A stretch of DNA of 64,000 nt from Marnyiella aurantia (GTDB taxonomy: Bacteria; Bacteroidota; Bacteroidia; Flavobacteriales; Weeksellaceae). The notes beneath the pieces are model-generated. The model had not been told where the DNA came from and ran no database searches. It was given only the letters and a program-made list of their open reading frames with translations. The position numbers were made by a program, and so were the translations under genes. Numbering within the stretch: position 1 is the stretch's first letter; the number at the start of each line of letters is the position of its first letter. Location: positions 620,001 to 684,000 of the forward strand of contig NZ_CP059472.1 in assembly GCF_014041915.1 (NCBI RefSeq), written 5' to 3'. Of this stretch, positions 6,595 to 36,621 are shown piece after piece.

Positions 6595-6623
6595 CCTTTT
6601 GCCTATTGCCTTGTATCTTTTAA

Positions 6624-8306: not shown

Positions 8307-8320
8307 AATTCTTTAAACTT

Positions 8321-8767: not shown

Positions 8768-8868
8768 TTGTGAATTGCAAAGATGAAAGAGTTGAGGGAC
8801 AAGGTATGGCGGTTATCAGGGCCAATTGAAAATTCTGCAAGTGGTGGAAAATTACTTTATTTATGTCA

Positions 8869-9564
8869 TTACAATGGCAACTCATTCAGCACCTTTTTCT
8901 GCACCTGCCAGTTTGGATAATACTGATCCATCAACAGCACGAAACGCTTATTGTGATTACGCTCCATCAGATGTACCATTTCGTGAACCACTATGTATTC
9001 AAGGCATTCCAATGGCTTCTTCGCTAGCTCAATGTTAAACCAAAGTCTTCCGGAATCGGTGGCGCAGCTGCCCCACTTTGTTTTCATGGTTCGGATTTTA
9101 AACTCTGGAATATCAATATTCATTTGTCCACTATAAAATGCGGTGAATTCTACAATTTTTTTCCTGAGTTCACGACGGTAAAAGGAATACAGCGTTTTTC
9201 TGTTTAATGCGGCGTTATCAGGATCCGTAGTATACAGAAACAGCTTCTTTCCCTTAATTTCAACCTTATTCCGTGTGGCTGGAATGAGTTTGAGAAGATA
9301 ACGGTTTCCGAAAAAGAAATGACTTTCCTGGGTGATAAAATCGCGCGGCTCCTCCCGCTCCTGGGTCAAAAACTTTTTCTGCTCTTTTTTAATCCAACCG
9401 AGTTTCGTAGCCGCATAAATCTTCACCTTCTCCAGATCATAGATCTCCGGCGATGAGATGGTCACATGACCATAAGGCGGATGCACACTCAGGTGAAGGT
9501 TCTTGATTGGCTTAAATTTCACCTCAATTTCTACGGAACCAATCTGCAGCAGCTCGGTCTTCAT
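8869..9564 (-). CDS. YgjP-type metal-dependent peptidase (SprT/M48-like)
   Basis: This 231-residue protein has the zinc motif H194-E195-M-V-H198, with a further His at 204 (MERNHNKRF), and the upstream KTKWGSC signature (about 162-168). This pattern defines the YgjP/DUF45 metallopeptidase group. These proteins are frequently encoded directly after hsdR, where their role is unproven; turnover of restriction subunits has been imagined. Here the start codon overlaps the hsdR stop by one base (9564), so translation is coupled. It closes the restriction operon. The motif set is complete, so an active hydrolase is likely, but the substrate is unknown. Confidence 0.85.
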   Translation of the reverse strand: MKTELLQIGSVEIEVKFKPIKNLHLSVHPPYGHVTISSPEIYDLEKVKIYAATKLGWIKKEQKKFLTQEREEPRDFITQESHFFFGNRYLLKLIPATRNKVEIKGKKLFLYTTDPDNAALNRKTLYSFYRRELRKKIVEFTAFYSGQMNIDIPEFKIRTMKTKWGSCATDSGRLWFNIELAKKPLECLEYIVVHEMVHLMERNHNKRFVLLMDQYYPNWQVQKKVLNELPL

Positions 9565-15084: not shown

Positions 15085-16891
15085 TTAAAATCATTTTTAC
15101 ATTTTCAGCATAATGCTCCATATCATTCTCACTCCAATACTCGTTTTGGAGTGTGTCTTTGGAAGTATGTCTTTTAAGGAAACAGTTAGTAGTTCCATAA
15201 GGAACATAATTTTTTTCAAGTTCCAGTCTTTTATTTTCTTCGGTTACTTTTACTATTTTTAGCACAGCATCGCGTTTATCGCGGAAAACACCATTCCCTA
15301 TTCTGCTGTTTGTTCCTTTATCTAACAGAGCAAGATTTCCAATTGAATGGACCCTGGTTTCATTTTCTACACTGTCTCGTATTTCCCGTACTTTCTCTCT
15401 AAGTTTTTCTGTATACGATGTGTACTCAAAGAAGTTTTCGAGCAAATTATTGATAATATTAATAATTGGTAATGCTGCGTTTTCATCTAATTCTGTTTTG
15501 TCCTTGTTGGACAGAATTTTGAGAGTATCTTCCAACCAGAATTTTAAATCGTCTAATGATTTAAAATCTTGGGGGTTTTGGGGATGAATGTGTTCTAGGC
15601 TCCACGATTCATTCACATACTTATCAAATGGAAATTTTTGTCCTGGAAAGTCCTTTTCATGTAGCAGAATATTGTACAACATTAAAATATTTCTGCACGC
15701 CACGCGGTTCTTTTTGTAATTAATTGCGTCGGAATTATTTATTTTGATATAATCAAGAACCATTTCATTTAAATAGTTATAAAACTCCGATTTCGGTTTA
15801 TTGTGGTATTCTTTCAAATATGTATTGGCAATTTCATAAAAACTGTTCAACCCTGAATTCACCAAAAAACCAATGCGATGATAGTATTTTTCATGATTGT
15901 ACCATTCTTTTGTTTTCTGAAAAATATCGACTATTTTTTGCCACTCCAACGCCGTCTTCTTCTCAGCATATTTTAGATAAGAAGTGTATATATTCTCGTC
16001 AGGACTTTCGGTAACGATATCAAACAGCAGCCCTATTCTTGTGAGATATTTTTCTTCCGTTCCGCTGGTAATAAAAAACCATAGCGAATCATTATTCAGA
16101 TTTCGTTCAATCAAGTTCCACTGATTGGAAAACTCTGTTTTATTCTGATTTCTTTGTGCTATATTTTCTTTTCCATTCTGAAAATTGAGAACGAAAAGAG
16201 CACGTATTAAGTCTGCTGACGTTAATCTAATTTTTCCGCTGTTCAAATCGCGGAAAAGTTTTTTGGCATTTGAAGTTTCGTTAACTAATACGGGATACCA
16301 AATTACTTTAAGATCATGAAGAAGCTTTGAATGAAATTCATTCAGAAAATCCCTACCAGACTTATGTTTATCGTGCAGCCATTGTGCAGTATTCTGATAG
16401 GCGGAGAAAATATTGTAATTATCAACATTTTTTTGATCCTCTGGCAGTAGATTCCATTGTTTATCAATTTGACTCTCATCAAAAACAAGATCATGTATAT
16501 TAATATTTTTTAGAAATGCGATACATGATATTCTTGTCGCATATTCTATCTGCAATGGCGTCCTTGAAACACCCATTTTTTCAAGTACTTTCAGAATAAT
16601 GAAAACTGTAGTAATGCGCTGCTGTCCGTCAATAACTTCGTACTTTTCATTATTTTGCAAATCCCGCGCAACCATGACTGGCTGTAAACAATATGTTTTA
16701 CCAGCTGGATTTTCTGCAATATCTTTTAATAATTGTAATACATGTATTTTTTGCCATCGGTAACCACGCTGATAATCTGCAATGTAATATATAATACTGG
16801 GACATCGTTTTTCGATATCTGAGAGACTTAGCAATTCCGAAATTTCTAAATTATTTTCTATGGTCATTCCTTTATTTTTATTTTCCCTCAC
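15071..16891 (-). CDS. DUF262-DUF1524 protein (GmrSD-like restriction protein)
   Basis: This 606-residue protein has DUF262 motifs Y40-Q-R-G-Y-R-W46 and D88-G-Q-Q-R92, the DLNSGKIRLTSADLIRALFV segment (about 216-235), and a C-terminal DUF1524 nuclease domain with L433-E-H435-I-H-P438 and IGNLALLD (518-525). This full GmrS-GmrD fusion layout is known in type IV restriction enzymes that cleave modified phage DNA. The frame opens with a GTG at 16891, overlapping the hsdS stop (GTGA); an ATG eight codons later (16867) is also possible. It is AT-rich like its neighbour 12607. It sits inside the type I operon between hsdS and the second DUF262 gene, so the cluster may handle both unmodified and modified invading DNA (inference). 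Confidence 0.88.
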   Translation of the reverse strand: MRENKNKGMTIENNLEISELLSLSDIEKRCPSIIYYIADYQRGYRWQKIHVLQLLKDIAENPAGKTYCLQPVMVARDLQNNEKYEVIDGQQRITTVFIILKVLEKMGVSRTPLQIEYATRISCIAFLKNINIHDLVFDESQIDKQWNLLPEDQKNVDNYNIFSAYQNTAQWLHDKHKSGRDFLNEFHSKLLHDLKVIWYPVLVNETSNAKKLFRDLNSGKIRLTSADLIRALFVLNFQNGKENIAQRNQNKTEFSNQWNLIERNLNNDSLWFFITSGTEEKYLTRIGLLFDIVTESPDENIYTSYLKYAEKKTALEWQKIVDIFQKTKEWYNHEKYYHRIGFLVNSGLNSFYEIANTYLKEYHNKPKSEFYNYLNEMVLDYIKINNSDAINYKKNRVACRNILMLYNILLHEKDFPGQKFPFDKYVNESWSLEHIHPQNPQDFKSLDDLKFWLEDTLKILSNKDKTELDENAALPIINIINNLLENFFEYTSYTEKLREKVREIRDSVENETRVHSIGNLALLDKGTNSRIGNGVFRDKRDAVLKIVKVTEENKRLELEKNYVPYGTTNCFLKRHTSKDTLQNEYWSENDMEHYAENVKMILNGCK

Positions 16892-18045
16892 ACCAACCTC
16901 ACCCTCCCCGTCAGCAGTTCCTGCATCATGCCCTGTTTGATCTGGCGGGCTTTGTGGAGTTGCTGCTCCAGGGCTGCCAGATCGGCATCCATATCCGATA
17001 AAATGGTGGCAATGCGCGTTTGTTCAATAAGGGATGGAAAAGATAAGTCGACATTATTTAACGTTGTGAAATTCAAAGCGGCCATTGTAGACGAACTACT
17101 TATCTCTTCTAGAGTGGGTTTCATGAAATCAAATAAATATTTGAAATATGAATTAACAATTTCCCGTTTTGGAATTAATCTAAAAAGATTATTTGCAATT
17201 ACTCCTTCATAATTAAATCCAACAACACCAGGTGCTCCATACCGCACCATAAATAGGTCGTTAAAATTAAGACGGTGCTCAATTCCAGGATCACTTATGA
17301 ATCTTGCTTCAGTATTGCTTTGCGTGACATCTACAATTCGAATAAATCTAACAAGCCCTTTACTATGGTTTTTAAATTGCTTTTCAACTCCACATTGTAC
17401 ACCTTGTTTTAATTTAAAAACTTCCCCCAACTTCTTCACCTCCCACCCCTCTTTCGGTGTCAGCAGTTCCTGCATGGCGCCCTGTTTGATCATGCGTTTT
17501 TTGGCGATGAGCTGCTCCAGACTTTCAATCCACGCATCGGCATCACTTAAAGCGCCGGCTATGGCCTCCTGCTCGGGAAGGGGCGGACAAACAAATTTGG
17601 TGCTTCGTAGAATATTGTTATACAATCTTTGAATAGTTCCCCCTTCAGTATTATAGCTCACAATATCTAAAACATATTTCAGTAGGTGATTAGATATGAT
17701 GTGTTCTTCATTATCTATCCATACTATATTAGAATCTTGATAATATCGCTCTTCTCCATCATAAACTACGGTTCTTCCTATAGTACCTGCCGCAGAAATT
17801 AGTATATCACCTACTTTTGGATAGCTAAACTTAGTTTTAAATTCTTCAAATAATTTTCGGCTGATAAATGCATCAGGCTCTTTCCCAAAAGTTCCGATTT
17901 TAAAGAAAGGGATTTCTCCGTACTCCACGGTCTGGTGCTGGAAAATTCTCTTGCACATTCTAACAGCTCCAACTTCTCCTAATTCTCTCACCTCCCAATC
18001 CTCCGGAATCAACCCAATCTCCGTCTGCTTCATGCCCTTTACCAT
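16888..18045 (-). CDS. hsdS: type I restriction enzyme, specificity subunit
   Basis: This 385-residue protein has two similar halves. Each has a variable target-recognition domain (about residues 10-150 and 205-340) followed by a conserved helical spacer (LPEQEAIAGALSDADAWIESLEQLI and its second copy ending LLTGRVRLV). Both spacers contain the AL/Q-rich signature that docks HsdM. It chooses the DNA sequence recognised by the whole complex; the site itself cannot be read from sequence. The start (ATG 18045) overlaps the end of hsdM by seven bases; an alternative Met lies four codons inside. The DUF262 gene downstream overlaps its stop by four bases. No broken second copy of hsdS or inverted repeats were found, so there is no evidence of phase-variable specificity. 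Confidence 0.94.
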   Translation of the reverse strand: MVKGMKQTEIGLIPEDWEVRELGEVGAVRMCKRIFQHQTVEYGEIPFFKIGTFGKEPDAFISRKLFEEFKTKFSYPKVGDILISAAGTIGRTVVYDGEERYYQDSNIVWIDNEEHIISNHLLKYVLDIVSYNTEGGTIQRLYNNILRSTKFVCPPLPEQEAIAGALSDADAWIESLEQLIAKKRMIKQGAMQELLTPKEGWEVKKLGEVFKLKQGVQCGVEKQFKNHSKGLVRFIRIVDVTQSNTEARFISDPGIEHRLNFNDLFMVRYGAPGVVGFNYEGVIANNLFRLIPKREIVNSYFKYLFDFMKPTLEEISSSSTMAALNFTTLNNVDLSFPSLIEQTRIATILSDMDADLAALEQQLHKARQIKQGMMQELLTGRVRLV

Positions 18046-24286: not shown

Positions 24287-24934
24287 TTACTGATTATACA
24301 TCCTGAGAATCTCAACAAGTTCAGGTATGGACTTTATCTGAAGTTTCTCGAAGAGCCGGTTTTTATAGGTGCTGATGGTGGATGAATGAAGGTTCAGCTG
24401 ATTGGAAATTTCTTTGAGCGGAAGCCCTTCGGCGAGTTTGTTGGCAATTTGGAGTTCACGGTCAGAGAGTATTTCGACAGGGGAAGTTTTGGTGTTGCCA
24501 CTCACAGATTCAAAAAACATGGCTTCCTTTACGGCTTCACTGGCATAGCGGCCGGTGGTGAGCATTGAGTTTAAAGCCGTCTCAATGGCTGCGCCAGGAC
24601 TTTGCTTGCTCAGATAACCACCAGCACCCATCTTCAGATAGCGCAAAGCGTATAATTCTTCGTCCTGGGAGGAGAATATGAGAATCTTCAGCTTGGGCTG
24701 CTTAATTTTTATGAAATCTATGGCTTCCTGAACAGTACCGTTAGGCATATTAACATCCATAATGGCCAGGTCCTGCTGTTGGTCCGAAATGACTCTGTAC
24801 ATCGATTTAAAATCCTCCACCTCGGTAATTACAGCCTCAGGCAGGAGACGTTTAAGCGTCTGTATTAAACCCATACGAACAATACCGTGATCATCTGCTA
24901 CTATAATGCGTACATTTTCTTTTAACTCCTTCAT
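24287..24934 (-). CDS. LuxR-family response regulator
   Basis: This 215-residue regulator has an N-terminal receiver domain with an acidic pocket (VADDHG) and phospho-acceptor Asp in LAIMDVNMP. The switch residues run through IFSSQDEE to the conserved Lys in YLSK. A C-terminal LuxR/GerE helix-turn-helix follows (LSDRELQIANKLAEG ... STISTYKNRLFEKL). It would bind DNA when phosphorylated. Its start overlaps the stop of the histidine kinase at 24931 by four bases (ATGA), so the two are a matched pair. The hybrid kinase gene lies just upstream in the same direction. The pilus-like cluster starts next, so pilus control is a reasonable but untested idea. Confidence 0.93.
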   Translation of the reverse strand: MKELKENVRIIVADDHGIVRMGLIQTLKRLLPEAVITEVEDFKSMYRVISDQQQDLAIMDVNMPNGTVQEAIDFIKIKQPKLKILIFSSQDEELYALRYLKMGAGGYLSKQSPGAAIETALNSMLTTGRYASEAVKEAMFFESVSGNTKTSPVEILSDRELQIANKLAEGLPLKEISNQLNLHSSTISTYKNRLFEKLQIKSIPELVEILRMYNQ

Positions 24935-25665
24935 TCATTCATTTTTGGTAAAAAAAGGGATACAGTGGTGCCTTTATCTGCAGACGAAATGATTTCAATG
25001 CTTCCCTGCATCAAGGATATGAAATTTTTAACAATTTTCAAACTCAACCCCACGCCTGTCTCGCCCGCGGTTCCCTGGAATACGGGATTATCATAAGTGT
25101 AAATGTTTGCTAAAAACTTTTCGTCCATTCCCGTTCCGGAGTCGGTCACAGAAAGTATCACCTGAGCTTCTTCTGTAATTACATTTAAGTAAATATCCTG
25201 GCCGGGCATTGAATATTTCACCGCGTTATTTAGAATCTTGTCCAGCACAAATTCAATCAGAATTCGGTCTGTCTCAATAAATGCACTGGTGTCGCCCTGA
25301 AAACGGAAACTGAGGTTTTTTTCTTTTAAACCGCCAGCGTATTTTTCTTCAAGATGCTGAAAGAGTCCGATCACGGCGATTTTCTCAGGTTTTATTTTAA
25401 AATCACCGTACTGTGTTTTCAGCCAGGCGGTGCTGTCCTGAACGGTTTGCAGGTTTTTCTGCGCATCGCTCTTTACCTGGGGCAACATCTTAAAAAAATC
25501 TTCTTTAGTAATGGTTTCCTGTTCCAGCGCTGCGGTGAGCCACAGAAAATTACCGAACATTGACCTGGAGTCATGCGACAAAATGGAAATCAGTCCGTTC
25601 TTAAAACTGATCTCATTTTTCAGGTTTTCGATCTTGGAATGCAGGTCGTTGATAGTGTCATTCAT
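24931..25665 (-). CDS. cytosolic histidine kinase partner of the LuxR regulator
   Basis: The 244-residue product from the ATG at 25665 (MNDTINDLHSK) has a short coiled-coil start. The phosphoacceptor region is ISILSHDSRSMFGNF. The ATPase domain shows an N-box (NNAVKYSM), a G1 box (VTDSGTGMD) and a G2 box (GETGVGLSL). There is no membrane segment or sensor domain. It phosphorylates the overlapping LuxR-type regulator. The frame is open ten codons further back, but those codons overlap a TATTTTTG promoter-like word, so the inner Met is preferred. The H-box is unusual: an Asp follows the His, without the usual Glu/Arg-Thr-Pro pattern. This is typical of HisKA_3-like or divergent groups. Confidence 0.88.
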   Translation of the reverse strand: MNDTINDLHSKIENLKNEISFKNGLISILSHDSRSMFGNFLWLTAALEQETITKEDFFKMLPQVKSDAQKNLQTVQDSTAWLKTQYGDFKIKPEKIAVIGLFQHLEEKYAGGLKEKNLSFRFQGDTSAFIETDRILIEFVLDKILNNAVKYSMPGQDIYLNVITEEAQVILSVTDSGTGMDEKFLANIYTYDNPVFQGTAGETGVGLSLKIVKNFISLMQGSIEIISSADKGTTVSLFLPKMNE

Positions 25666-25713
25666 AAATAAGGCAGGAATGCAAAAATACTTCAATATTA
25701 TTTAAAGCTTCAT

Positions 25714-28461
25714 TTATGCGTTGCCCTTATCCATTTCTTTGCCAAACCATTTTCTGATCATATCCGAAAGGCTTTGTTTTAACAAAGGTTTGGTTAAGAA
25801 ATCTGACATTCCGGCTTGCAAACACCTTTCTTTTTCGCCCGGAAGACCGCCGGCCGTGAGTGCAATAATTGGGATTTCAACATCTCTTTCCAGCAGTCTG
25901 ATCTTTTTGGTGGCTTCCAAACCGTTGAGATTGGGCATCTGGATGTCCATTAAAATAAGGTCCGCGTTCTCTTTCCCGTAAAGTTCAACTGCTTCCACCC
26001 CATCTTTGGCTTCGATGATCAAAGCCTGCGGAAGAATATCCTTTAAATAGGTCTTGGTGAGCAGCATATTAATTGTATTATCCTCGGCAATCAGGATTTT
26101 TACTTCGTTCTTCAGGACTTCAGTTTCGACAATCTTGACCTGCTCCGGTTTTTTCTTTTCAGAATTCTTTAAGCCCGCTAAAACCTGATACATCTGCTTC
26201 ATGCGAATCGGTTTGACAAGCCTGTTTTCTATCTCCAGCTCGTCGCACGCCTCCTGTAAATTACCATCATCGGACGAACTGTACAAGACAATATACGGTG
26301 CTGCGTGGGTAGCTTCCGGCATAATTTCTTTCATTTTCCTGATGGTTTCCACACCATCCATGACCGGCATATGATAATCCATAATAATTACATCGAATTC
26401 GGACTTGTCCATGATTAAAAGCAAGGCTTTAAGGCCGCTGTCGCATTCCGTTACTTCGATATTTTTACGTTCCAGCATCCTTTTCAGGATTTTGCGGTTG
26501 TTTTCGTTATCGTCTACCACCAGCACACGCTTGATATCAGTTAAGCTAAGATCATATTCCTCCTGCTCGGTATCAAAATCAATATCGAAGAAAAAATCGC
26601 TGCCCTTTCCCTGCTCGCTTTCCAGCTGTAAAATACTACCGGCCAGTTCCAAAATCTGGTTAGAGATCGTTAGTCCCAGACCTGTACCGCCATATCTTTT
26701 GGTAATAGAACCGTCTTCCTGCGAAAAGGCGTTGAAGATTTCCGCCTGTTTTTCGCGGTTGATTCCGATACCGGTATCGCGGACTCCAAACCGAAACCGT
26801 TTCTTTCCACCGTCCAAATCATCTAAAACCCGAACATATAAAACAATCTCTCCTTCTTCGGTGAATTTTAATGCATTGCTCAGGAGGTTTACGAACACCT
26901 GTTTCAGGCGCAACTCATCCGTCCAGATATATCTGGGGATGGCATCGTCTATATCAATAAGCATTTCCAGCTGCTTTTTGGTATTGCTGTACGCAACCAT
27001 ATTGAAGGATTCTGAAACCAGTTCTTCAATCTCCACTTTATCAAGGTTGAGCTTAAGTTTTTGATTTTCCAATTTTGAGAAGTCTAAAATATCATTGATG
27101 ATGCTGTACAACGACACGCCGGACTGGTTGATAATGTCGAGATACTGCCTCTGTGTATCGTCCAGTTTGGTTTCCAGAAGGAGTTCTGTAAAGCCGATAA
27201 TTCCATTTAAAGGCGTTCTGATCTCATGACTCATGTTGGCCACGAACTCCGATTTCAGCACATACGCTTTTTCGGCAAACTCTTTTGCGGCAACAATTTC
27301 ATTTTCCATTTTTTTTCTTTCAGTGATATCCACTGCATTAGCAATTACCTGTACTTTACCATCCACATCTTCGTCTATCGCACTCATAAAGTGCCAAACT
27401 GCTTTTTCTCCGTTTTTCTTACGGATGGTCATTTCACCTATTGCCTGACCTGAAGTTTTGATCTGGCTCAGATACGCTTTTACATTTTGATGTTTTTCCG
27501 GGATGATGAGATCGTAAAGATTAAGGTGCTTCAACTCTTCTCGTAAATAACCAGAAGCCTTAAGGCCGGCTTCATTTACATCCAAAAGATAACCTTCGTC
27601 ATCATGTATACTGATTATTCCCTGGTTTTTTTCAAAAGGATCACGGTATTTCTGTTCATTTCTTTCGAGTAATTTTTGTTTGGTGGTAAATTCTGTAACG
27701 TCCCTTCCGATGGTGTACACCAATCCGGACTGCAGTTCAGGAGTACAGGTCCATTCTATCCATCTCACCGCTCCGGATTTGATGATGTATCTGTTGGTGA
27801 AGTTCACTAAAGAATCACCCTGTGCCAATGTATTTATTACTTGTAAAGTATTTTTCCTGTCTTCCGGATGAACAAATTCGATAAAACCTCTGCTCATAAA
27901 CTGTTCGTCGCTCCATCCAAGCATTTTCGAAAAGGCCGGATTTAATTTCACGAATTTTCCGTCCAACGAAAAAACGCCCAACAAATCGTTCGAGGTTTCG
28001 AAAAGTGCATCATAACTGTTCAGCTGCTGTTCCTGTTCTTTATAAAAAAACCATTTTGAGGCCTGCCTTACAACCTTTTCAATGATCTGCTGAACTTCGT
28101 CATCAAAGTCTTGCACCTGGTTGGCAAATAAATTCAGATGTCCGGTCATCTTGCCATCAAGACCCGAAACGGGATAACTTCTACGGAATTTAAGATCCGC
28201 ATGTTCAGGCAGATAAACAGAATCGTCATCATTCATTTCAAAATGAGGATTGACGGGATAAATTCTGGTAACAGACGCCTCGGTAGAAGCAAGAATATAA
28301 ACCTGCTCTTCTATGGTAATACTCAAACTGCAATGCTCCATGTTGGTCATTTTAGCGGCCGAAAAAACCAAAAACTCAAAAACATCGGCATATTTTTTCT
28401 CGAACGTATGTAATTTATCAGTCGCGGATTGGTCCGGATTAGTAGAATTGAGGTTGTCCAT
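25714..28461 (-). CDS. hybrid histidine kinase, GAF-PAS-PAS-HK-REC-REC
   Basis: This 915-residue protein has, in order, a GAF-like region (about 20-140), PAS (about 150-260), PAS (about 275-385), HisKA with H412 (FVANMSHEIRTPLNG), an ATPase domain with a G1 box (RDTGIGI) and a G2 box (YGGTGLGL), and two receiver domains. The receivers show VLVVDDNENN with Asp in IIMDYHMP and ILIAEDNTIN with Asp in ILMDIQMP. No transmembrane helix is seen, so it senses inside the cell, possibly through ligand or redox state at GAF/PAS. The downstream kinase starts 48 bases after its stop, so the three signalling genes probably share a transcript. Two terminal receivers usually mean a phosphorelay to a separate partner. 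Confidence 0.93.
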   Translation of the reverse strand: MDNLNSTNPDQSATDKLHTFEKKYADVFEFLVFSAAKMTNMEHCSLSITIEEQVYILASTEASVTRIYPVNPHFEMNDDDSVYLPEHADLKFRRSYPVSGLDGKMTGHLNLFANQVQDFDDEVQQIIEKVVRQASKWFFYKEQEQQLNSYDALFETSNDLLGVFSLDGKFVKLNPAFSKMLGWSDEQFMSRGFIEFVHPEDRKNTLQVINTLAQGDSLVNFTNRYIIKSGAVRWIEWTCTPELQSGLVYTIGRDVTEFTTKQKLLERNEQKYRDPFEKNQGIISIHDDEGYLLDVNEAGLKASGYLREELKHLNLYDLIIPEKHQNVKAYLSQIKTSGQAIGEMTIRKKNGEKAVWHFMSAIDEDVDGKVQVIANAVDITERKKMENEIVAAKEFAEKAYVLKSEFVANMSHEIRTPLNGIIGFTELLLETKLDDTQRQYLDIINQSGVSLYSIINDILDFSKLENQKLKLNLDKVEIEELVSESFNMVAYSNTKKQLEMLIDIDDAIPRYIWTDELRLKQVFVNLLSNALKFTEEGEIVLYVRVLDDLDGGKKRFRFGVRDTGIGINREKQAEIFNAFSQEDGSITKRYGGTGLGLTISNQILELAGSILQLESEQGKGSDFFFDIDFDTEQEEYDLSLTDIKRVLVVDDNENNRKILKRMLERKNIEVTECDSGLKALLLIMDKSEFDVIIMDYHMPVMDGVETIRKMKEIMPEATHAAPYIVLYSSSDDGNLQEACDELEIENRLVKPIRMKQMYQVLAGLKNSEKKKPEQVKIVETEVLKNEVKILIAEDNTINMLLTKTYLKDILPQALIIEAKDGVEAVELYGKENADLILMDIQMPNLNGLEATKKIRLLERDVEIPIIALTAGGLPGEKERCLQAGMSDFLTKPLLKQSLSDMIRKWFGKEMDKGNA

Positions 28462-28489
28462 AAGGAGAAGATATTGTTAGGAAGTGTAC

Positions 28490-29920
28490 TTAAATTGCTG
28501 TAAAACTGTAGTAGACATTGACAGAGTAAGTGCTGCTTTCCTTCCCGACCAAAGTTTGAGCACCTGCGGGTGGAATGGTGTATCTAACATTGAGTTCGCG
28601 GTCCAATACCGGGGTTCCGTTCGTCAGTATTTTTTGCGGGGTTTTGGATAGGGGCACGTTTGCAGAACTTCCCTCCAGCCCAATCTGTAAAATATTGGAG
28701 TTAATGGCGGTCTGAACGCCGCCTTTTTTAAAGTAATTTTCGTCTGACTTTACGTAGAGTTCGAAACTCTCATTGTTGGACAATTTGATTTGTTTTTGAA
28801 TCGTCTGCGACTGCCCATTGGCGTAATGGGCAGCGGTATTAAAGTTGAAATTTACATTTTGTCCGGAACTTGGGATGGTGATCTCAGACCGTGGAAGCAC
28901 CTTTAACTGAACGGCGGTATTTTGCAGGCTGTTTATTGAGTTATCTGTACTTCTGGCACTAAAGTTCAGTTCAAAAGTATACGTTCCGGCTTCAAAAAAG
29001 TGGGTTTTAAGATCTTCTGCAGAAACATAAAGTTCCGGAATGAAACTGTTTCTGTTTCCGGGTATTACATTGAAATTAGCCGCCGAAAAATTCTGAAAAG
29101 TGGACGATAAAGCTTTGGTTGTAAGTGCTGAGCCATTGCTGCCCAATTTAATAGTGGCTATATTTCTGGTTCCCTGGGTTCCTTTGGAGGAAACGAACTG
29201 TATATTGTTTGCAGCAGCTTTCGCCCATAAATTAAAATCAACCGTATGCCCGATTTCGGCATTACCTAAATTTCCCAAAACCCGCGTGCCTGTAATCCGG
29301 TAGTCATTCAGAGAAGATATTTCAATATACTTTGTGGGAGAGGCTGTTAGCCATCGGACGGAGGCCGGAATAACTAAAACAGTTCTGAAATTACGCGGTG
29401 TAAAATCATAATTCTGAGTAATATTCATGGAGTAATTACCCGCCTGAAATGCGTTCGCAGCAAACTGAGCTGCAGGAATCTTGAACGTGAAATTAATATT
29501 TCCGCGGTTAAATCCGCCGCCAAGTACCGATGACGGCGGCTCAAACCATCTTACCGCCCCTGTACTAAAGGACTGAAACCCCGGTAAATAACCCAAATAT
29601 CCAGTAGATGGCATTTGACCGCCCATACTTTCCAGCTGCCAAAGAAGAACAGTATTGGGTAAGGTCAATGAGGAAGATGACTGAATAAAATTTGCACCTG
29701 ACGTAGAGGTAAATGTAGGACTTACCGGACCTAATCCAAAAAAAGCATAATCCCAGTTTGTTCTGCTTGTGTTCATTACAGTTGTGGGCAATGAAGTAAA
29801 TTCAGACCTGTTAAAAATATTATCCTCAGGAATTGATAGGTACACATCCTGCGCTTTCGTCACTGTTGACCCGCAGCAGATGGTAAAGATCACTATTATA
29901 AAACCCCTGATTGCTTTCAT
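28490..29920 (-). CDS. secreted two-domain protein, putative pilus tip subunit
   Basis: This 476-residue protein has a signal peptide (MKAIRGFIIVIFTICCGST, cut near residue 23). The N-terminal half (about 25-335) is beta-rich and Ser/Asn-rich and looks like a binding domain. The C-terminal 140 residues repeat the pilin pattern found in the four small subunits: a strand FNFNTAAHYANG (pilins: FNYATAADYN), then LSNNESFELYVKSDENYF, then YTIPPAGAQ before G-K and an ending ...VYYSFTAI (pilins: YTIPAA, ...YTATAL). A lectin-plus-pilin layout is how chaperone-usher tip adhesins are built. It is the last gene of the chaperone-usher operon, 10 bases after the barrel gene. The ligand is unknown. Confidence 0.75.
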   Translation of the reverse strand: MKAIRGFIIVIFTICCGSTVTKAQDVYLSIPEDNIFNRSEFTSLPTTVMNTSRTNWDYAFFGLGPVSPTFTSTSGANFIQSSSSLTLPNTVLLWQLESMGGQMPSTGYLGYLPGFQSFSTGAVRWFEPPSSVLGGGFNRGNINFTFKIPAAQFAANAFQAGNYSMNITQNYDFTPRNFRTVLVIPASVRWLTASPTKYIEISSLNDYRITGTRVLGNLGNAEIGHTVDFNLWAKAAANNIQFVSSKGTQGTRNIATIKLGSNGSALTTKALSSTFQNFSAANFNVIPGNRNSFIPELYVSAEDLKTHFFEAGTYTFELNFSARSTDNSINSLQNTAVQLKVLPRSEITIPSSGQNVNFNFNTAAHYANGQSQTIQKQIKLSNNESFELYVKSDENYFKKGGVQTAINSNILQIGLEGSSANVPLSKTPQKILTNGTPVLDRELNVRYTIPPAGAQTLVGKESSTYSVNVYYSFTAI

Positions 29921-29930
29921 ATCTCTAAAA

Positions 29931-32738
29931 TTAAAACTTTTTCACCTTTATGGTGGTGTCTTTCTTCTTATATTCAAAAACCACGGTATCTGTAAAACCT
30001 TCTTTGGTTACCTGAACAGTTTGTACAGGCTGCGTGTAGCTGTATTTGTCATTTTCGATATAAACTTCGTATTTTCCGTCTTTCAGGAAGAATTCAAACT
30101 CATTATTCTGGTTTACAACAGAGGTATGTACCGTGCCGTCCTCACTTTTCGCATACACCACGATACCTGTTACATCAGTCTCCAAAACATCGTAAGCCTG
30201 CCTAATCTCTGTCAGTTTACCAGTCAGCCTGATGTTTTTCACCAAACCTACTTTACGGTTAATATTGCTGCTTACCATCATTACAGGATCCATCATAAGG
30301 CGGGCACCGGCGCTCTCGTTTACCTTAAGTATGTAAGTGCCTTGGGGCACATTCTGGAACACCACTTTTCCGTTTTTATCTGTCATTGCCACAAAACTGT
30401 CCAGTTTCACAATTTCACCGGCAAGTACCGGTTCGCCTGCTTCCAGAAGCCCGTTATAGTTTTTATCCTCAAACAACTGGACAGTTACTTTATGATTTCC
30501 AGGAGCGGTGGCTGAGGCAAAATATTTTTTGATTCCAACACGGTACTGGTAATAACTGCCGCTGCTTCCAAAAGCCGCATTGGATTTATAACCCGAAAAA
30601 TTAAAATAACCTGTAGACGACCAAGAAGGTGAAATTTTATATTCCAGATTTCCGGTTACATTGCTGTTCAGGTTTTTATAAAGTTCAGAATAAGAGGTGC
30701 CGGCCGAAAATGATCCAATAAGATCATTACCAAGCATCTGAAAATTATAGGAGGCATATACGTTGTAATTGGCAAAATTACGGTCCACATCGTAAAAGGA
30801 ATTCAGATCAAAGACATTGGTGGCGTTCCACTGCGCGGTTCCGTTCAATGAAAAGGATTTATACCTGTACGATAACGTCGTTTTAAGACTGTTGAACCAA
30901 TCGGGATTTTCGTTCTCTTTCGAGTAGGAATATTCTGCGGTCAGATTTAATCCGTGCGCACCTAATGCAGTACCGATATTTGTTTCCAAACGGTAAGAAA
31001 AGAGCTCCTGCGAATTGTAAAAATTGGCTGTTTTCTGTCTTTCGACCTTAGGAGCTATCAGGAAATTCCAATCCTTAAGAGAAACCTGGTAACCTGTTCC
31101 TAAAGCTTCGGTACTGTTGAAGTAATAGCGGACATTTTCGGCATTTCCGGCTTGAACAGGTGCACTCTGAAAGCTCAGAAATTCCGGGTCCACCTGCGAG
31201 TTCTGATATTGTACAAAGGCGCGCTGCGAGTCTGTAACCCGGAGACCAACACGCTGGTTTGAGAAAAATGACCCACGCTTAAGGCCTGCATAACTTTTTG
31301 TGGCAAATGAATTATCCGACTGAATATCCCATTTTCCCAGTGTGCCACTGTAATTAAATCCCATGGAAGCACCGGCATTTTCGTCTTTGTTGGTTAGGCC
31401 TTTTTCGTGGCTTAAGCCCGCCTCCACCCGTACACTTTGTTTTTCAGTAATTAAAAAAGAGGAAACCGCATTGGCTACCTGTGTGTCTACACCAAAGCGC
31501 GGATCATGGTCGAATATATAGGAAGCTTTACCATTGAATGTTTTACCGTTTCCAAAACTATACTTTGCACCTGCCATTTTAGAGCCTTCTGCCTGCTGGA
31601 AGTAATTACCATAAAGGTTAAAGTTATTCTCCACAGCCAAAATCTCCACCTGACCGGTTGTTCCGAGCCTGGTTGAAATTTTGCCACCGCGGCCATAAAC
31701 GGCATAATCGTAATCGTTGCCATTAATGTTTCCCACACGCAGAACCGTATTTTTTCTCTCAACTTCCAGCCAGGTATCATAGAGGTTATAACGTCCTTCT
31801 TCAAGAAAATAATCTGCCCCCAGATTCAGCCGTGCGCTCATATTTGGAGCTACCGCAAACGCTGTGTTTCCGCGTAGCTGAAGATAATTGAAACCTGAAC
31901 TGTTTTCGTTGTAACCCACTTCGGCAAAATTACTTCCGCTCACGGTTTCGTTTCCGCGTGCAATCTGTCTGTTGTTTGACAAAATTACAAGATGAACAGT
32001 ATTGCTGCCCACGATTTCATTATCGGCAAGATCGGTTGCTACCGCATTAATGTTGAATTCCGGGAAAAGTGTATTCTGTTTTCTTACCGCGATTCTGATT
32101 TCAACCATCTGCTTTTCAAGACCTTCCAGAGATAACGTTTGCTGTGCAGGTATCATCTCCAGGCCATCGGGAATGGATTGCAGATCGATTTTAACGGTCC
32201 GTTTACTGTAACCCTGATTTTCCACATATAGCCGAATGGAAGAGTGTGGCTCGGCAGGATTGATGAAATTCTCGTAAGAAGCCGTGTAAACCGCGATGTT
32301 TTTGTTTTCGTCTTTTTTAACAAAGAAAGAAGCACTCTCAGTTTGGGCGTACGTTGAAGCAGTATAAGAAATATTGAACCTGATCTCATTGGATCTCAGT
32401 TTCATGAATTCCAGATTGGCAATGAGTTTTACCGGCAGACGTTTGGACTGACCGGCACCCAGAGTAAAATCACTTTTAGGATATAACAGCAAACCCGGAT
32501 ATTTTTCCTGAGGCATTATATTCTGAATGGTAATCTCTTCAGAACTGTTATTCTGAATAACCAGAAAATTGGTAAAAGTGGAACCTTTCTCCACTGTTAC
32601 GGTCTCATTTTCAAAATGAATTTCCACCACCTTCTTTTCCTGCGCAAAGGCGAAAGAAAAGTTCAGAAGAACAAAGGCCAAGAAAAAGGCTGCTCTTCTA
32701 AGGACCGAAGCTGGTATCTCATTTTGTGGTCTCAACAC
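29931..32738 (-). CDS. usher-like outer-membrane barrel with beta domains at both ends
   Basis: This 935-residue protein has an N-terminal signal (about residues 1-33). Two Ig-like beta domains follow (about 35-250). A long region of alternating beta strands with many aromatic-ending strands (about 265-745) reads as a large outer-membrane barrel. C-terminal beta domains close it, one SdrB/carboxypeptidase-regulatory-like (FEDKNYNGLLEAGEP, then GKVVFQNVPQGTYIL) and a final related domain. The plan (periplasmic domain, barrel, periplasmic domains) parallels an usher, though the sequence is not a classical FimD type. It lies six bases after the chaperone gene and before the tip gene, exactly where an usher would be. 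The function is inferred from position and layout. Confidence 0.7.
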   Translation of the reverse strand: MLRPQNEIPASVLRRAAFFLAFVLLNFSFAFAQEKKVVEIHFENETVTVEKGSTFTNFLVIQNNSSEEITIQNIMPQEKYPGLLLYPKSDFTLGAGQSKRLPVKLIANLEFMKLRSNEIRFNISYTASTYAQTESASFFVKKDENKNIAVYTASYENFINPAEPHSSIRLYVENQGYSKRTVKIDLQSIPDGLEMIPAQQTLSLEGLEKQMVEIRIAVRKQNTLFPEFNINAVATDLADNEIVGSNTVHLVILSNNRQIARGNETVSGSNFAEVGYNENSSGFNYLQLRGNTAFAVAPNMSARLNLGADYFLEEGRYNLYDTWLEVERKNTVLRVGNINGNDYDYAVYGRGGKISTRLGTTGQVEILAVENNFNLYGNYFQQAEGSKMAGAKYSFGNGKTFNGKASYIFDHDPRFGVDTQVANAVSSFLITEKQSVRVEAGLSHEKGLTNKDENAGASMGFNYSGTLGKWDIQSDNSFATKSYAGLKRGSFFSNQRVGLRVTDSQRAFVQYQNSQVDPEFLSFQSAPVQAGNAENVRYYFNSTEALGTGYQVSLKDWNFLIAPKVERQKTANFYNSQELFSYRLETNIGTALGAHGLNLTAEYSYSKENENPDWFNSLKTTLSYRYKSFSLNGTAQWNATNVFDLNSFYDVDRNFANYNVYASYNFQMLGNDLIGSFSAGTSYSELYKNLNSNVTGNLEYKISPSWSSTGYFNFSGYKSNAAFGSSGSYYQYRVGIKKYFASATAPGNHKVTVQLFEDKNYNGLLEAGEPVLAGEIVKLDSFVAMTDKNGKVVFQNVPQGTYILKVNESAGARLMMDPVMMVSSNINRKVGLVKNIRLTGKLTEIRQAYDVLETDVTGIVVYAKSEDGTVHTSVVNQNNEFEFFLKDGKYEVYIENDKYSYTQPVQTVQVTKEGFTDTVVFEYKKKDTTIKVKKF

Positions 32739-32744
32739 GTGATT

Positions 32745-33545
32745 TTAGAATTTAAAGTTTTTTTCGCCTACACGTAAATCATTGGAGCCTGCCATTTTAA
32801 TGATGGCTACGCCCAGGAAGTTTCCTGAAATATTCTCTGGCAAAGAAAACTTAACCAGCTGATTGGTATTTGGCAGCATGGAGATTGAAATGGCAGGTAG
32901 TTTTATTTCCTTACCGGTGTCAGTGTCGGTCAGTTCAAATTCCACCGTGGCATCGTTAATTGTGTTTCCGTCATTCTGAATGCTTACGGCTACCTTTCTG
33001 CCTGCTGAATTATCAGTACTAACCTCTGCAATATTGGTAATATCCAGACTTTTTACGCTGTTTCCCGGTGGCGTATAAAAGATATGAAGTCCCACTTCAA
33101 ATAAGGTAATGATACCAATTCCGTTCTGAACACGTGCCTGATCGGCCTGCTGAGGAAGCTGAGTAAAAAATAACATGCTGTTGGTAACCGACTTTGGCGC
33201 GTTAGCCGGAATCTGCATGGTTACAGTAATCTCCTTTTTGGCTCCCGCGGGAACTGTTACGGAGTTCTCGAGTGTGGAAACCCAGGCAGCATTTGAAATT
33301 TTTGAACTGCCTGCCTCAAGATAAACTTTATTGCCGTCTTCTTCCCTAACCCAATCTTTATAATTGAGGTTAAAAACATAGTCCTTATCCGAACTGTTGT
33401 GAAGCGTAACCGTTTGTGTTACTTTTTCCCCGGGATTACCTGTGAAAAACAGACGCGTAGGCGACATAGAGATACTCTGTGCCAAAAGTGACGAGGTACC
33501 TGCGAGGATAAGGAAGAAAGTGAAAAGGTGAATAAACTTGCGCAT
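32745..33545 (-). CDS. PapD-like periplasmic chaperone
   Basis: This 266-residue protein, from the ATG at 33545 (MRKFIHLFTFF), has a signal peptide ending near LLAQS. Two beta-sandwich domains follow. The first begins SISMSPTRLFFTG and continues TQTVTLHNSSDKDYVFNLNYKDW, which is the start and strand pattern of pilus chaperones (cf. PapD-type N-domains). Conserved elements also include VTMQIPANAP and a second domain with VSIQNDGNTINDATVEF. It would cap pilin subunits in the periplasm. The frame opens ten codons earlier, but the inner Met fits the signal peptide. It is preceded by a promoter/operator module that is also found before three pilin genes, and followed by the usher-like gene. Confidence 0.75.
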   Translation of the reverse strand: MRKFIHLFTFFLILAGTSSLLAQSISMSPTRLFFTGNPGEKVTQTVTLHNSSDKDYVFNLNYKDWVREEDGNKVYLEAGSSKISNAAWVSTLENSVTVPAGAKKEITVTMQIPANAPKSVTNSMLFFTQLPQQADQARVQNGIGIITLFEVGLHIFYTPPGNSVKSLDITNIAEVSTDNSAGRKVAVSIQNDGNTINDATVEFELTDTDTGKEIKLPAISISMLPNTNQLVKFSLPENISGNFLGVAIIKMAGSNDLRVGEKNFKF

Positions 33546-33614
33546 GATAATTTTGTTAAAATAAAGAATTGCCAAAACTACTGAAACCTAAATAAAAGTC
33601 CTCTTTGAACACTG

Positions 33615-33683
33615 CAAATTTACAGCGGTCAACAAAGTTTGTTTGTAGTGCAAATTGGAAGTGATTGTAGTAAAATAACTACA
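33615..33683 (-). promoter_or_regulatory. promoter/operator module before the chaperone-usher operon
   Basis: Read on the minus strand, TGTAGT-(6)-ACTACA (33666-33683) is followed by 16 bases, another ACTACA (33644-33649), then 21 bases, then the -7 box TAAATTTG (33615-33622). This spacing is identical in the other three modules. The palindrome plus a direct half-site 22 bases away looks like an activator site reaching the -35 region. Confidence 0.65.
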
Positions 33684-33691
33684 CGACTTTT

Positions 33692-33727
33692 AAAAAGAAA
33701 AACCCTCAGCACCTAACATGCTGAGGG
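33692..33727 (-). terminator. terminator of pilin A
   Basis: CCCTCAGCA pairs perfectly with TGCTGAGGG around a seven-base loop, with a T-rich run after it on the minus strand. It begins 20 bases after the pilin A stop. Confidence 0.85.
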
Positions 33728-33747
33728 CTTGTGTCAGTTGACTTTAA

Positions 33748-34299
33748 TTACAAAGCAGTGGCAGTATAAGTAACAGTTTGCGTATAAGTTCCGGCCGGTT
33801 TACCCAGGATCTTGGCAGATGATGACTGCGCTGCAGGAATCGTATAATCCAGGTTCAGTGTTAAGGCACTTCCAAGTGGAGCATTTGTAACTAAATTCTG
33901 GTCTGATGAAGACAAAACTACAGCACTTTTTGTTCCGCCCATGGTTCCGGCATTGCTGGCAGCTTTAATTGTTAAAACATCTACTGGGATGATGTTGGTT
34001 GCAGTGGTGCCGTGAACGAAATTCGCGCCACCGGCTTTTACTTTCACATTAAAGGGCTTAGTTGAAGTTATTTTCAAAGCGTTTGCCTGAGGAACTGTTT
34101 TCTCTGAATTGTAATCCGCAGCAGTAGCATAATTAAATGCAACCACACCCGTAATTGCAGTACTTCCCGCGTCGATAGAGATCACATCACTTAGGGTAAT
34201 ATTTACAGTTGTAGTAGCGGTAGAATTCTGCGCCTGAACATTAGTTCCTAATACGATGGCTCCGAAAGTTAAGGCTGCAATTGCGAATTGATTTTTCAT
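33748..34299 (-). CDS. secreted pilin-like subunit A
   Basis: This 183-residue protein has a signal peptide ending VQAQN (cut after about residue 23), leaving a Cys-free beta-rich mature chain of about 160 residues. Shared family motifs are DVISIDAGSTAI, FNYATAADYNS, PFNVKVKAGGANF, VLTIKAASN, PLGSALTLNLDYTIPAA and a final YTQTVTYTATAL. The repeated, similarly sized neighbours and the adjacent chaperone and usher-like genes make a major or minor pilus subunit the best reading. The strong Thr/Ala content and lack of Cys match CS1/alpha-type fimbrial subunits better than type 1 pilins. It lies on the unit closest to the chaperone and has its own promoter module (34356-34424) and terminator. Confidence 0.75.
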   Translation of the reverse strand: MKNQFAIAALTFGAIVLGTNVQAQNSTATTTVNITLSDVISIDAGSTAITGVVAFNYATAADYNSEKTVPQANALKITSTKPFNVKVKAGGANFVHGTTATNIIPVDVLTIKAASNAGTMGGTKSAVVLSSSDQNLVTNAPLGSALTLNLDYTIPAAQSSSAKILGKPAGTYTQTVTYTATAL

Positions 34300-34355
34300 G
34301 ATATTTTTAATTTTTATTTGTTACTGTTTGTTTAGTTGTCCTCTTTTGAACACTG

Positions 34356-34424
34356 CAAATTTACAGCGGCTTTAAAAGTTTCTTTGTAGTGCAAATTGGA
34401 AGTTGATGTAGTAAAATAACTACA
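34356..34424 (-). promoter_or_regulatory. promoter/operator module before pilin A
   Basis: TGTAGT-(6)-ACTACA at 34407-34424, half-site at 34385-34390, TAAATTTG at 34356-34363, with the same 16- and 21-base spacers as the other modules. It is 741 bases from the chaperone module and 743 from the next. Confidence 0.65.
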
Positions 34425-34442
34425 TGGCTTATTTATCCAATT

Positions 34443-34471
34443 AAAAACCCTCAACATTTGCATGCTGAGGG
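34443..34471 (-). terminator. terminator of pilin B
   Basis: CCCTCAACAT pairs with ATGCTGAGGG with one mismatch, with a run of A on the plus strand (T on the transcript). It lies 25 bases after the pilin B stop. Confidence 0.75.
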
Positions 34472-34496
34472 CGTAAAATGCTGTTGATTAGTGTGC

Positions 34497-35042
34497 TTAC
34501 TTAGCGGTCGCAGTATAAATTACTGTTTGTGTATAAGTTCCCGCGGGTTTTCCCAGAATGTCAGCTGAAGACGATTTCGCTGCAGGAATGGTATAATCCA
34601 GGTTCAACGTTAATGCGCTTCCAAGTGGAGCATCTGCCACTAAAGTCTGGTCGGCTGTAGATAAGTTAACATCAGATTTTGTTCCACCCATTGAACCGGG
34701 AGCTGCAGCGGCTTTGATTGTCAAAACATTAACCGGAATTTTATTGGTTCCATTTAGAAAATCTGCACCACCTGCTTTTACTTTTACATCAAATGCCTTC
34801 GTTGAAGTTACTTTCAAAGCGTTCGCCTGAGCCACAGTTTGTACGGTGTTATAATCCGCTGCGGTAGCATAGTTAAAGGCAATTGCACCATCAATTGCAG
34901 TACTTCCTGCGTCGATAGAGATAACATCGCCCAGGGTAATTTTTGCGGTTGTAGTAGCATTATGGTTTTGAGCCTGAACAGTGTTGGTTCCTAATACGAT
35001 TGCTCCGAATGTTAAGACTGCGATTGCAAATGAATTTTTCAT
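34497..35042 (-). CDS. secreted pilin-like subunit B
   Basis: This 181-residue protein has the same design as A: a signal peptide ending VQAQN and a mature chain with DVISIDAGSTAIDG, FNYATAADYNT, AFDVKVKAGGADF, LGSALTLNLDYTIPAAKSS and a YTATAK ending. A and B are the two most alike in the central part, with differences concentrated in loops and near residues 105-130. The final Lys replaces the usual Leu; whether this affects donor-strand-like assembly is unknown. It is preceded by a full promoter module (35099-35167) and followed by its own terminator, so it is transcribed alone. No sign of frame loss. Confidence 0.75.
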   Translation of the reverse strand: MKNSFAIAVLTFGAIVLGTNTVQAQNHNATTTAKITLGDVISIDAGSTAIDGAIAFNYATAADYNTVQTVAQANALKVTSTKAFDVKVKAGGADFLNGTNKIPVNVLTIKAAAAPGSMGGTKSDVNLSTADQTLVADAPLGSALTLNLDYTIPAAKSSSADILGKPAGTYTQTVIYTATAK

Positions 35043-35098
35043 AATATTTTTAATTTTGATTTTGTTACTGTTTGTTTAGTTGTTCTCTCTTGATACTG

Positions 35099-35167
35099 CA
35101 AATTTACAGCGGCGATCAAAGCTTCTTTGTAGTGGAAATTGGAAGTTGATGTAGTAAAATAACTACA
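35099..35167 (-). promoter_or_regulatory. promoter/operator module before pilin B
   Basis: Palindrome at 35150-35167, half-site at 35128-35133, TAAATTTG at 35099-35106. Spacers match the other copies. Confidence 0.65.
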
Positions 35168-35191
35168 GATTCGGTACTCGCTTAAAAAATA

Positions 35192-35221
35192 AGCCCTCTA
35201 CATTATAAAGTATCAAGGGCT
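35192..35221 (-). terminator. weak terminator of pilin C
   Basis: AGCCCT pairs with AGGGCT, with two further mismatched pairs inward. It is weaker than the hairpins of A, B and D but in the same position, followed by a T-rich stretch on the transcript strand. Confidence 0.55.
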
Positions 35222-35242
35222 CATATAAATATTGGTGCTTAA

Positions 35243-35785
35243 TTATAATGCTGTGGCGGTATAAATAACTTTCTGAGTGTATACACCTGCAGGTTTACCT
35301 AAGATATCAGAAGATGAAGATTTCGCCGCAGGAATGGTGTAATCTATGTTCAACGTTCTGGCGCTTCCAAGTGGCGCATTTACAATTAACGGCTGATTAG
35401 TTGTAGATAACACTACAGTGTTTTGTGTTCCTGCCATGTTTCCTCCAGTTGCAGCTTTAATCGTTAAAACATTTACCGGAATTAGGTTGACTCCATTCTG
35501 GAAATTCGCACCCTCCGCTTTTACATTTACAGTGAAGTTCTTTGTTGACGTTACTTTAATCGCGTTATCCTGAGTAACTGTTTGAGCTGAATTATAATCT
35601 GCCGCTGTAGCATAATTAAAAGCCACTGTTCCACCAATCGCACTACTTCCCGCGTCGATAGAAATTACATCACCTAGTGTAATTGTAGCTGTTGTAGTGG
35701 CGGTCGTGTTTTGAGCCTGAACAGTGTTAGTTCCTAATACAATTACTCCAAAGGTTAAGGCTGCGATTGCGAATGATTTTTTCAT
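35243..35785 (-). CDS. secreted pilin-like subunit C
   Basis: This 180-residue protein, from the ATG at 35785 (MKKSFAIAALTFG), has a signal peptide ending VQAQN. The frame extends upstream to 35926, but those residues overlap the promoter module and are not coding. Motifs match A and B (DVISIDAGSSAIG, FNYATAADYNS, VNVKAEGANF, LGSARTLNIDYTIPAA, QKVIYTATAL). The mature chain is about 157 residues and has no Cys. Its operator module is at 35840-35908. It lies between B and the more divergent D, and is close to both in length. Role as for A. Confidence 0.75.
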   Translation of the reverse strand: MKKSFAIAALTFGVIVLGTNTVQAQNTTATTTATITLGDVISIDAGSSAIGGTVAFNYATAADYNSAQTVTQDNAIKVTSTKNFTVNVKAEGANFQNGVNLIPVNVLTIKAATGGNMAGTQNTVVLSTTNQPLIVNAPLGSARTLNIDYTIPAAKSSSSDILGKPAGVYTQKVIYTATAL

Positions 35786-35839
35786 GATATTTTTAATTTG
35801 ATTTGTTACTGTTTGTTTAGTTGTTCTCTTTTGATACTG

Positions 35840-35908
35840 CAAATTTACAGCGGCGATCAAAGCTTCTTTGTAGTGGAAATTGGAAGTTGGTGTAGTAAAA
35901 TAACTACA
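35840..35908 (-). promoter_or_regulatory. promoter/operator module before pilin C
   Basis: Palindrome at 35891-35908, half-site at 35869-35874, TAAATTTG at 35840-35847. It is 741 bases from the pilin B module. The sequence between the elements is also conserved (GGAAATTGGAAGTTG words on the plus strand). Confidence 0.65.
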
Positions 35909-35937
35909 CAGATTATCGCAAAGCAATTAAAAACAAA

Positions 35938-35966
35938 AGCCCTCAACACTTCAAGTGCTGAGGGCT
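35938..35966 (-). terminator. terminator of pilin D
   Basis: AGCCCTCAACAC pairs with GTGCTGAGGGCT with one mismatch around five bases, followed by a T-run on the minus strand. Confidence 0.85.
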
Positions 35967-35986
35967 GTATAAACTTTGTTTTCTGC

Positions 35987-36529
35987 TTATAATGCTGTGG
36001 CGGTATAAATAACCTTTTGGACGTAAGTTCCCTTAGGCTTTCCAAGGAGGACCTTTGAGGCTTTTTCGGCTGAAATAGAATAGGCAATATTTAAAGACTG
36101 TCTGTATCCCAAAGCCGCATTACTCACCAATACCTGGTCAGCAGTTGACAATGTAACCTCATTCATAGTTCCCATTAAGGTTCCACCTGATACTGCCTTT
36201 ACCTTTAGAACATCAACCGGGATAGCGTTTGAGCCACTTACAAAATTGGCGCCCTCAGATTTTACCTTAACGTCGAAGTTTTTGGATGAAATGATAACCA
36301 AACTGTTGGGAACAGTCACATTCTGGGCAGAATTATAATCTGCCGTATTCGCATAATTGAAATTAACACTTCCTTCTGAAGCGGCAGTTCCCACATCCAT
36401 TGAAATAACGTCAGCTAAATTAATGCTGACTGCCGCGGTAACCGACTCAGAATTTTGCGCCTGTACGTGATTTGTACCTAATGCGACCTTTATCAGAACC
36501 AGCGAAGCAAAAAGGAATTGTTTTTTCAT
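35987..36529 (-). CDS. secreted pilin-like subunit D (divergent copy)
   Basis: This 180-residue protein, from the ATG at 36529 (MKKQFLFASLVLIK), has the shared VQAQN signal end, then a more divergent mature chain: DVISMDVGTAAS, FNYANTADYNS, NFDVKVKSEGANF, RQSLNIAYSISAE, QKVIYTATAL. It keeps the C-terminal pilin motif but differs at roughly half the positions from A-C. Its promoter (36591-36621) is a plain housekeeping-type one and lacks the TGTAGT operator, so it may be expressed on different cues. It is the outermost unit of the array. It could be a minor, initiator or alternative subunit. Confidence 0.75.
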   Translation of the reverse strand: MKKQFLFASLVLIKVALGTNHVQAQNSESVTAAVSINLADVISMDVGTAASEGSVNFNYANTADYNSAQNVTVPNSLVIISSKNFDVKVKSEGANFVSGSNAIPVDVLKVKAVSGGTLMGTMNEVTLSTADQVLVSNAALGYRQSLNIAYSISAEKASKVLLGKPKGTYVQKVIYTATAL

Positions 36530-36590: not shown

Positions 36591-36621
36591 CAAATCTAAT
36601 AACATTATCTGTATTCACAAA
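36591..36621 (-). promoter_or_regulatory. consensus promoter before pilin D
   Basis: Reading on the minus strand, TTTG, then 19 bases, then TAGATTTG match the Bacteroidota -33/-7 consensus. It is about 60 bases before the ATG at 36529. The TGTAGT/ACTACA operator present in front of the other units is absent. Confidence 0.65.

Follow-up and report, generated by a model that had tools for sequence, protein, structure and literature searches.

A two-box promoter module before pilin genes and a pilus assembly operon in Marnyiella aurantia, with a candidate NarL/FixJ activator

Main finding

In the Chryseobacterium-like host Marnyiella aurantia, the window (the whole stretch of 64,000 nucleotides that was analysed) has four copies of the module TGTAGT-N6-ACTACA-N16-ACTACA-N21-TAAATTTG, all on the minus strand. 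The copies precede three pilus-subunit genes (pilins A, B, and C) and a pilus assembly operon that begins with a chaperone gene (Table 1). We consider it likely, on comparative sequence evidence, that the NarL/FixJ response regulator encoded at 24287-24934 activates the four sigmaA promoters through two-box operators, with feedback on its own gene. The sequence of the module, its conservation and spacing, the gene order, and the co-occurrence with the regulator were observed directly.

Table 1. Coordinates in the window of the modules, promoter elements, terminators, and genes of the pilus locus
Feature	Position	Strand	Remarks
Module 1	33644..33683	-	Pattern match; before the chaperone-usher-adhesin-kinase-regulator operon
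-7 element TAAATTTG of module 1	33615..33622	-	21 bp past the module; TAnnTTTG is the flavobacterial sigmaA -7 box (PMC9723704)
Module 2	34385..34424	-	Pattern match; upstream of pilin A
-7 element TAAATTTG of pilin A	34356..34363	-	21 bp past module 2
Module 3	35128..35167	-	Pattern match; upstream of pilin B
-7 element TAAATTTG of pilin B	35099..35106	-	21 bp past module 3
Module 4	35869..35908	-	Pattern match; upstream of pilin C
-7 element TAAATTTG of pilin C	35840..35847	-	21 bp past module 4
Pilin D canonical promoter TTTG-N19-TAGATTTG	36591..36621	-	Conserved in pilD orthologues
Pilin A	33748..34299	-	Predicted fimbrial-subunit fold
Pilin B	34497..35042	-	Preceded by module 3
Pilin C	35243..35785	-	Start at MKKSF; the listed ORF begins further upstream
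Pilin D	35987..36529	-	First gene of the array; no module
Terminator hairpin 3' of pilin A	33700..33730	-	Hairpin search
Terminator hairpin 3' of pilin B	34447..34472	-	Hairpin search
Terminator hairpin 3' of pilin D	35938..35966	-	Hairpin search
Periplasmic chaperone-like protein	32745..33545	-	First gene of the module 1 operon
Outer-membrane usher-like beta-barrel protein	29931..32738	-	Low-confidence model; best PDB match FimD, PapC among the top
Probable two-domain tip adhesin	28490..29920	-	Residues 356-476 align to pilins
Hybrid histidine kinase	25714..28461	-	Best NCBIfam match BarA, below cut-off
Cytosolic histidine kinase (254 aa)	24931..25695	-	Best NCBIfam match FimS of Porphyromonas, below cut-off
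NarL/FixJ response regulator	24287..24934	-	Phospho-acceptor D60; candidate activator of modules 1-4

The module in the host genome

The copies lie at intervals of 741, 743, and 741 bp, and in all four TAAATTTG follows the module at exactly 21 bp, as an earlier note on this DNA had described. That note called the copies identical, which holds for the half-sites but not for the spacers, which differ slightly. Its remark that pilin D lacks the module was borne out when the upstream regions were compared. The fixed spacing is real, but it reflects a tandem duplication of a promoter-pilin-terminator cassette. Since the spacing of about 742 bp has this origin, identity within the window proves little.

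Dinucleotide shuffling of the window gave an expectation of 0.01 modules, also with three mismatches tolerated, against the four exact matches observed. The genome-wide search that the note had proposed found the exact palindrome TGTAGT-N6-ACTACA nowhere outside the four copies in the 2.6 Mb scanned, and the exact pair ACTACA-N16-ACTACA was likewise confined to the four module sites. Palindrome matches with one mismatch showed no excess over a reversed-pattern control in the same 2.6 Mb.

Genes of the pilus locus

Six genes stand in a row with gaps of at most 28 bp, those for the chaperone, the usher, the adhesin, the hybrid kinase, the small kinase, and the regulator; transcription of the regulator gene should therefore also start from module 1. 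At E 0.001, the locus proteins matched none of the Pfam and NCBIfam models for ushers, chaperones, or pilins, and PDB sequence searches with the pilin profile, the usher profile, and the chaperone gave no meaningful match. At the structural level, the predicted model of pilin A shows the incomplete immunoglobulin fold of fimbrial subunits, with Z scores of 8.7 to FimA and 6.9 to CsuA/B, and most of its top PDB matches were fimbrial subunits. Judged by the predicted structures, the locus product is probably a pilus of the chaperone-usher type, from a divergent Bacteroidota branch.

When the locus (24287-36529) was compared with its counterpart in another genus (L064, genome G109), the chaperone, usher, and adhesin DNA was 95-99% identical and the flanking regulator, kinase, and pilin genes 81-87%, so the locus is a mosaic. 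Neither the usher nor the module was found in the three same-genus genomes searched. Such mosaicism points to DNA having recently passed between genera by transfer or recombination.

Promoter architecture

The -7 box of flavobacterial sigmaA promoters is TAnnTTTG, mapped at -12 to -5 in Flavobacterium psychrophilum (PMC9723704), and the module promoters carry it. They have no TTTG at the -33 place, where ACTACA adjoins instead. Between the two ACTACA copies we found a further conserved element, CTTMCA, in flavobacterial modules (15 sequence clusters); it was not present in the Chitinophaga module. Because CTTMCA is conserved, the module is most plausibly a pair of 18-bp boxes, TGTAGT-N6-ACTACA and CTTMCA-N6-ACTACA. 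They are 22 bp apart, with centres near -64.5 and -42.5 if TAnnTTTG is taken as -12 to -5. The earlier note had missed CTTMCA and had likened the half-sites, 22 bp apart, to those of a dimeric or direct-repeat-binding activator; the spacing stands, but the layout is one of two tandem boxes and not only of a direct repeat.

The module promoters without a -33 TTTG, set against the ordinary promoter of pilin D, indicate that the former need an activator, and their layout would be that of an activator-dependent sigmaA promoter. It is quite improbable that the module is a repressor site which keeps the locus off until it is derepressed. Palindromic operators are often bound by repressors and one half-site does adjoin the -33 position, but it is the module promoters that lack the -33 TTTG and the module-free pilD that has one, and the position of the sites, near -42.5 and -64.5 and ahead of the -7 box, is in keeping with activation. 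Moreover, the candidate protein is a NarL-type response regulator.

Other kinds of element were rejected. Against an RNA element, the predicted transcript begins downstream of the module, and an Rfam search nearby gave only a tRNA. Separate GC-rich hairpins stand after most pilins, which speaks against the palindrome as a terminator, and repeats just 6 bp long and 6 bp apart do not make an invertible promoter.

Conservation across relatives

We compared 161 distinct upstream regions of related pilins, counting mismatches over 18 positions. The module was present in 117 (0-2 mismatches) and the other 44 had at least 5, with none between. Many of these loci had been fetched with the module pattern itself, and the same two-way split appeared in 56 regions fetched by usher homology instead (window counted in). 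TAnnTTTG stood exactly 21 bp past the last ACTACA in 115 of the 117 module-bearing regions.

A pattern scan of 148 family genomes found the module in 17, mostly at matching pilus loci. With the last gap left free from 4 to 34, it was exactly 16 in 44 of 47 matches across these 148 genomes. In modules before distant pilins (Bizionia, Aequorivita, Psychroflexus, Flavobacterium, and divergent Weeksellaceae), the half-sites were 100% identical and the other positions 35-51%. Beyond the family, a GTDB genome scan gave at least 114 modules in the loci examined, at least 83 of them directly upstream of a related pilin; multi-copy repeat matches outside Bacteroidota (L123, L130, L138, L139, L172) and a repeat in L177 were set aside.

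This footprint bears on whether the four copies have no role in regulation and owe their likeness to recent tandem duplication or gene conversion alone. Across genera, half-sites and spacing are kept despite diverged spacers, and the module also precedes an unrelated lipoprotein gene. Although tandem duplication did produce the units of about 742 bp, whose flanks are similar, we give this explanation next to no probability, and the cross-genus footprint rules out recent duplication as the sole cause.

The usher-locus modules of three genomes (L066, L068, and L072 in G090, G020, and G115) have a variant of the distal half-site in common, TGTGGC. The recognition helix of their regulators is nearly unchanged.

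The candidate regulator

The protein encoded at 24287-24934 has the two NarL/FixJ domains by Pfam, a receiver (62.1 bits, cut-off 30.2) and a GerE/LuxR HTH (52.7 bits, cut-off 23.5), and its phospho-acceptor D60 and K110 were identified. The best-scoring family was the UvrY/SirA/GacA equivalog NF007018, whose cut-off was not reached (111.9 vs 280 bits). An orthologue (at least 54%) was found in 16 of the 17 module genomes and in none of the 131 module-free family genomes, with a Fisher p of 1.6e-20 that ignores shared descent and linkage. As regulator and pili form one locus, part of this co-occurrence is simple linkage. Three genomes (G090, G115, and G020) keep the regulator at the locus, with neither adjacent kinase detected.

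Modules away from pilins give a second line of evidence. Among the matches listed, 11 of 15 non-pilin modules of other lineages had a NarL-type regulator gene 68-206 bp away, where chance would give about 2% or less; pilin-preceding, locus-edge, repeat, and pilin-less-cassette cases are excluded from the 15. Some of the 11 are sister species, and the independent cases are therefore nearer nine. A further module adjoins such a gene in L234. The module-adjacent regulators have a common recognition-helix pattern close to T-[VI]-S-T-[YV]-[KR], which is UvrY-like.

The module could also be a genuine operator read by another regulator, such as a paralogous NarL-type protein encoded elsewhere in the genome. 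We regard this as unlikely: orthologue and module go together in 16 of the 17 genomes, and the non-pilin modules adjoin a NarL-type regulator of their own. The genome of the window encodes only five NarL-type regulators, the next closest to the candidate at 34% identity. Paralogues at 30-38% identity do have similar recognition helices, so cross-recognition may occur, and one genome (G097) has the module before an orphan pilin with no orthologous regulator and with paralogues at 30-34% only. However, such paralogues are also found in module-free genomes (G053, G071, and G147).

The earlier note had proposed one dedicated regulator for the locus. Confinement to the locus, the footprint, and the co-occurrence lend good comparative support to a single regulator, but dedication to pili holds for this genome only, since in other species the box precedes some non-pilin surface and secretion genes.

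Modules in other contexts

In L089 (9801) and L090 (6449), the module stands before the gene of a 556-aa repeat-containing lipoprotein, and L090 carries another copy of the regulator gene, 75% identical, about 700 bp away. Boxes with N15 and N23 spacing precede type VI secretion TssD- or baseplate-like genes in L249 (4508) and L250 (4390). Another N15-spaced box precedes a 374-aa surface protein in L248 (4219), with a different UvrY-like regulator gene 1.7 kb off. In sequences from uncultured Bacteroidetes and Chitinophagaceae (L115, 1141, and L119, 7690), a regulator gene adjoins the palindrome and a GldL-like gliding/type IX secretion gene. The box before lipoprotein and type VI genes means that either the regulon is wider in these lineages or paralogous regulators share the box.

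Single pilin cassettes also occur away from the usher locus in Chryseobacterium (L081 at 3542-17300, L083, L087, L116, L125, L137). These stray cassettes consist of an upstream terminator, the module, a pilin, and a conserved 3' element (CATATTAATATTTTGTG...), and are interleaved with unrelated genes. In L088 (9862) and L151 (3184), a full module and promoter are followed by no ORF and then by the 3' element of pilin cassettes, and these are probably cassettes that lost their pilin. A short regulated RNA was rejected for both, because the DNA that follows corresponds to the 3' flank of pilin cassettes.

Proposed mechanism and meaning

In the mechanism that we favour, a phosphorylated dimer of the NarL/FixJ regulator would bind the palindrome TGTAGT-N6-ACTACA near -64.5. 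A second dimer would bind CTTMCA-N6-ACTACA near -42.5, two helical turns downstream and beside the usual -33 place, and both dimers together would bring RNA polymerase to the -7 box TAnnTTTG, from which the transcription start is predicted. The chaperone, usher, adhesin, two kinases, and regulator would be transcribed as one operon behind module 1; with its gene in this operon, the regulator is expected to promote its own synthesis in a positive feedback loop. The genes of pilins A, B, and C would be separate promoter-pilin-terminator cassettes turned on together with the operon, and pilin D would run from its own ordinary promoter. Binding, phosphorylation, activation, and feedback are the steps that we infer.

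The literature searched yielded no assignment of a regulator to its binding site of this kind for Bacteroidota, and searches on this motif in Bacteroidetes and on usher pili in Chryseobacterium gave nothing relevant. The proposed assignment is specific: it predicts a regulon that is small, complete, and under positive feedback, and it would account for the joint expression of several pilin copies, pilin D apart. Besides, the module sequence can be scanned for in any relative.

Comparison with known systems

The locus resembles chaperone-usher pili in that the pilin model is close to the FimA and CsuA/B folds and the adhesin has a pilin-like C-terminus; for the usher-like protein, a low-confidence model gave FimD as its best match. 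The locus differs in that its proteins match no Pfam/NCBIfam pilus model, the usher included.

FimA and Mfa1 of Porphyromonas belong to a different, lipoprotein-derived pilus type. FimS/FimR is nevertheless a case of two-component control of fimbriae in Bacteroidota, and the 254-aa kinase of our locus is closest to FimS, although its match to the FimS equivalog NF053520 is far below the cut-off (100.7 vs 600 bits). FimR of Porphyromonas gingivalis binds the mfa1 promoter and activates mfa1 directly (PMC1974823). A FimR site resembling the module was not found in the literature searched.

At the ogt promoter of E. coli, NarL activates from two sites, at -44.5 and -77.5 (PMC7419079). Thus, two NarL-family sites upstream of one promoter are an established activator layout. 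The module promoters share with ogt a pair of upstream sites for a (putative) NarL-family activator, one of them near -44.5, whereas the ogt sites are 33 bp apart instead of 22 bp and differ in sequence. Moreover, ogt has a sigma70 -10 promoter, unlike the module promoters.

The GacA box is TGTAAG-N6-CTTACA (PMC8523701). The palindrome of the module is alike in its 18 bp, its TGTA...TACA ends, and its 6-bp spacer, and the locus encodes a NarL/FixJ regulator with a similar recognition helix and a hybrid kinase closest to BarA of the BarA/UvrY (GacS/GacA) system, though well below the cut-off. It is different in the inner two bases (GT/AC vs AG/CT), so TGTAGT-N6-ACTACA falls outside the GacA box definition while sharing its geometry and outer four bases; the module would work like a GacA-type box, yet it is not one by the tested definition. 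The module also consists of two tandem boxes beside the promoter, and its targets are pilin genes, not CsrA-binding small RNAs. This suggests that a GacA-box-like operator is used directly at fimbrial promoters. More tentatively, and with somewhat less than even confidence, we propose that TGTAGT-N6-ACTACA may be the box of a GacA/UvrY-like regulator branch of Bacteroidota, perhaps of other phyla too, that directly activates promoters of pili, adhesin, lipoprotein, and type VI secretion genes and does not act via small RNAs.
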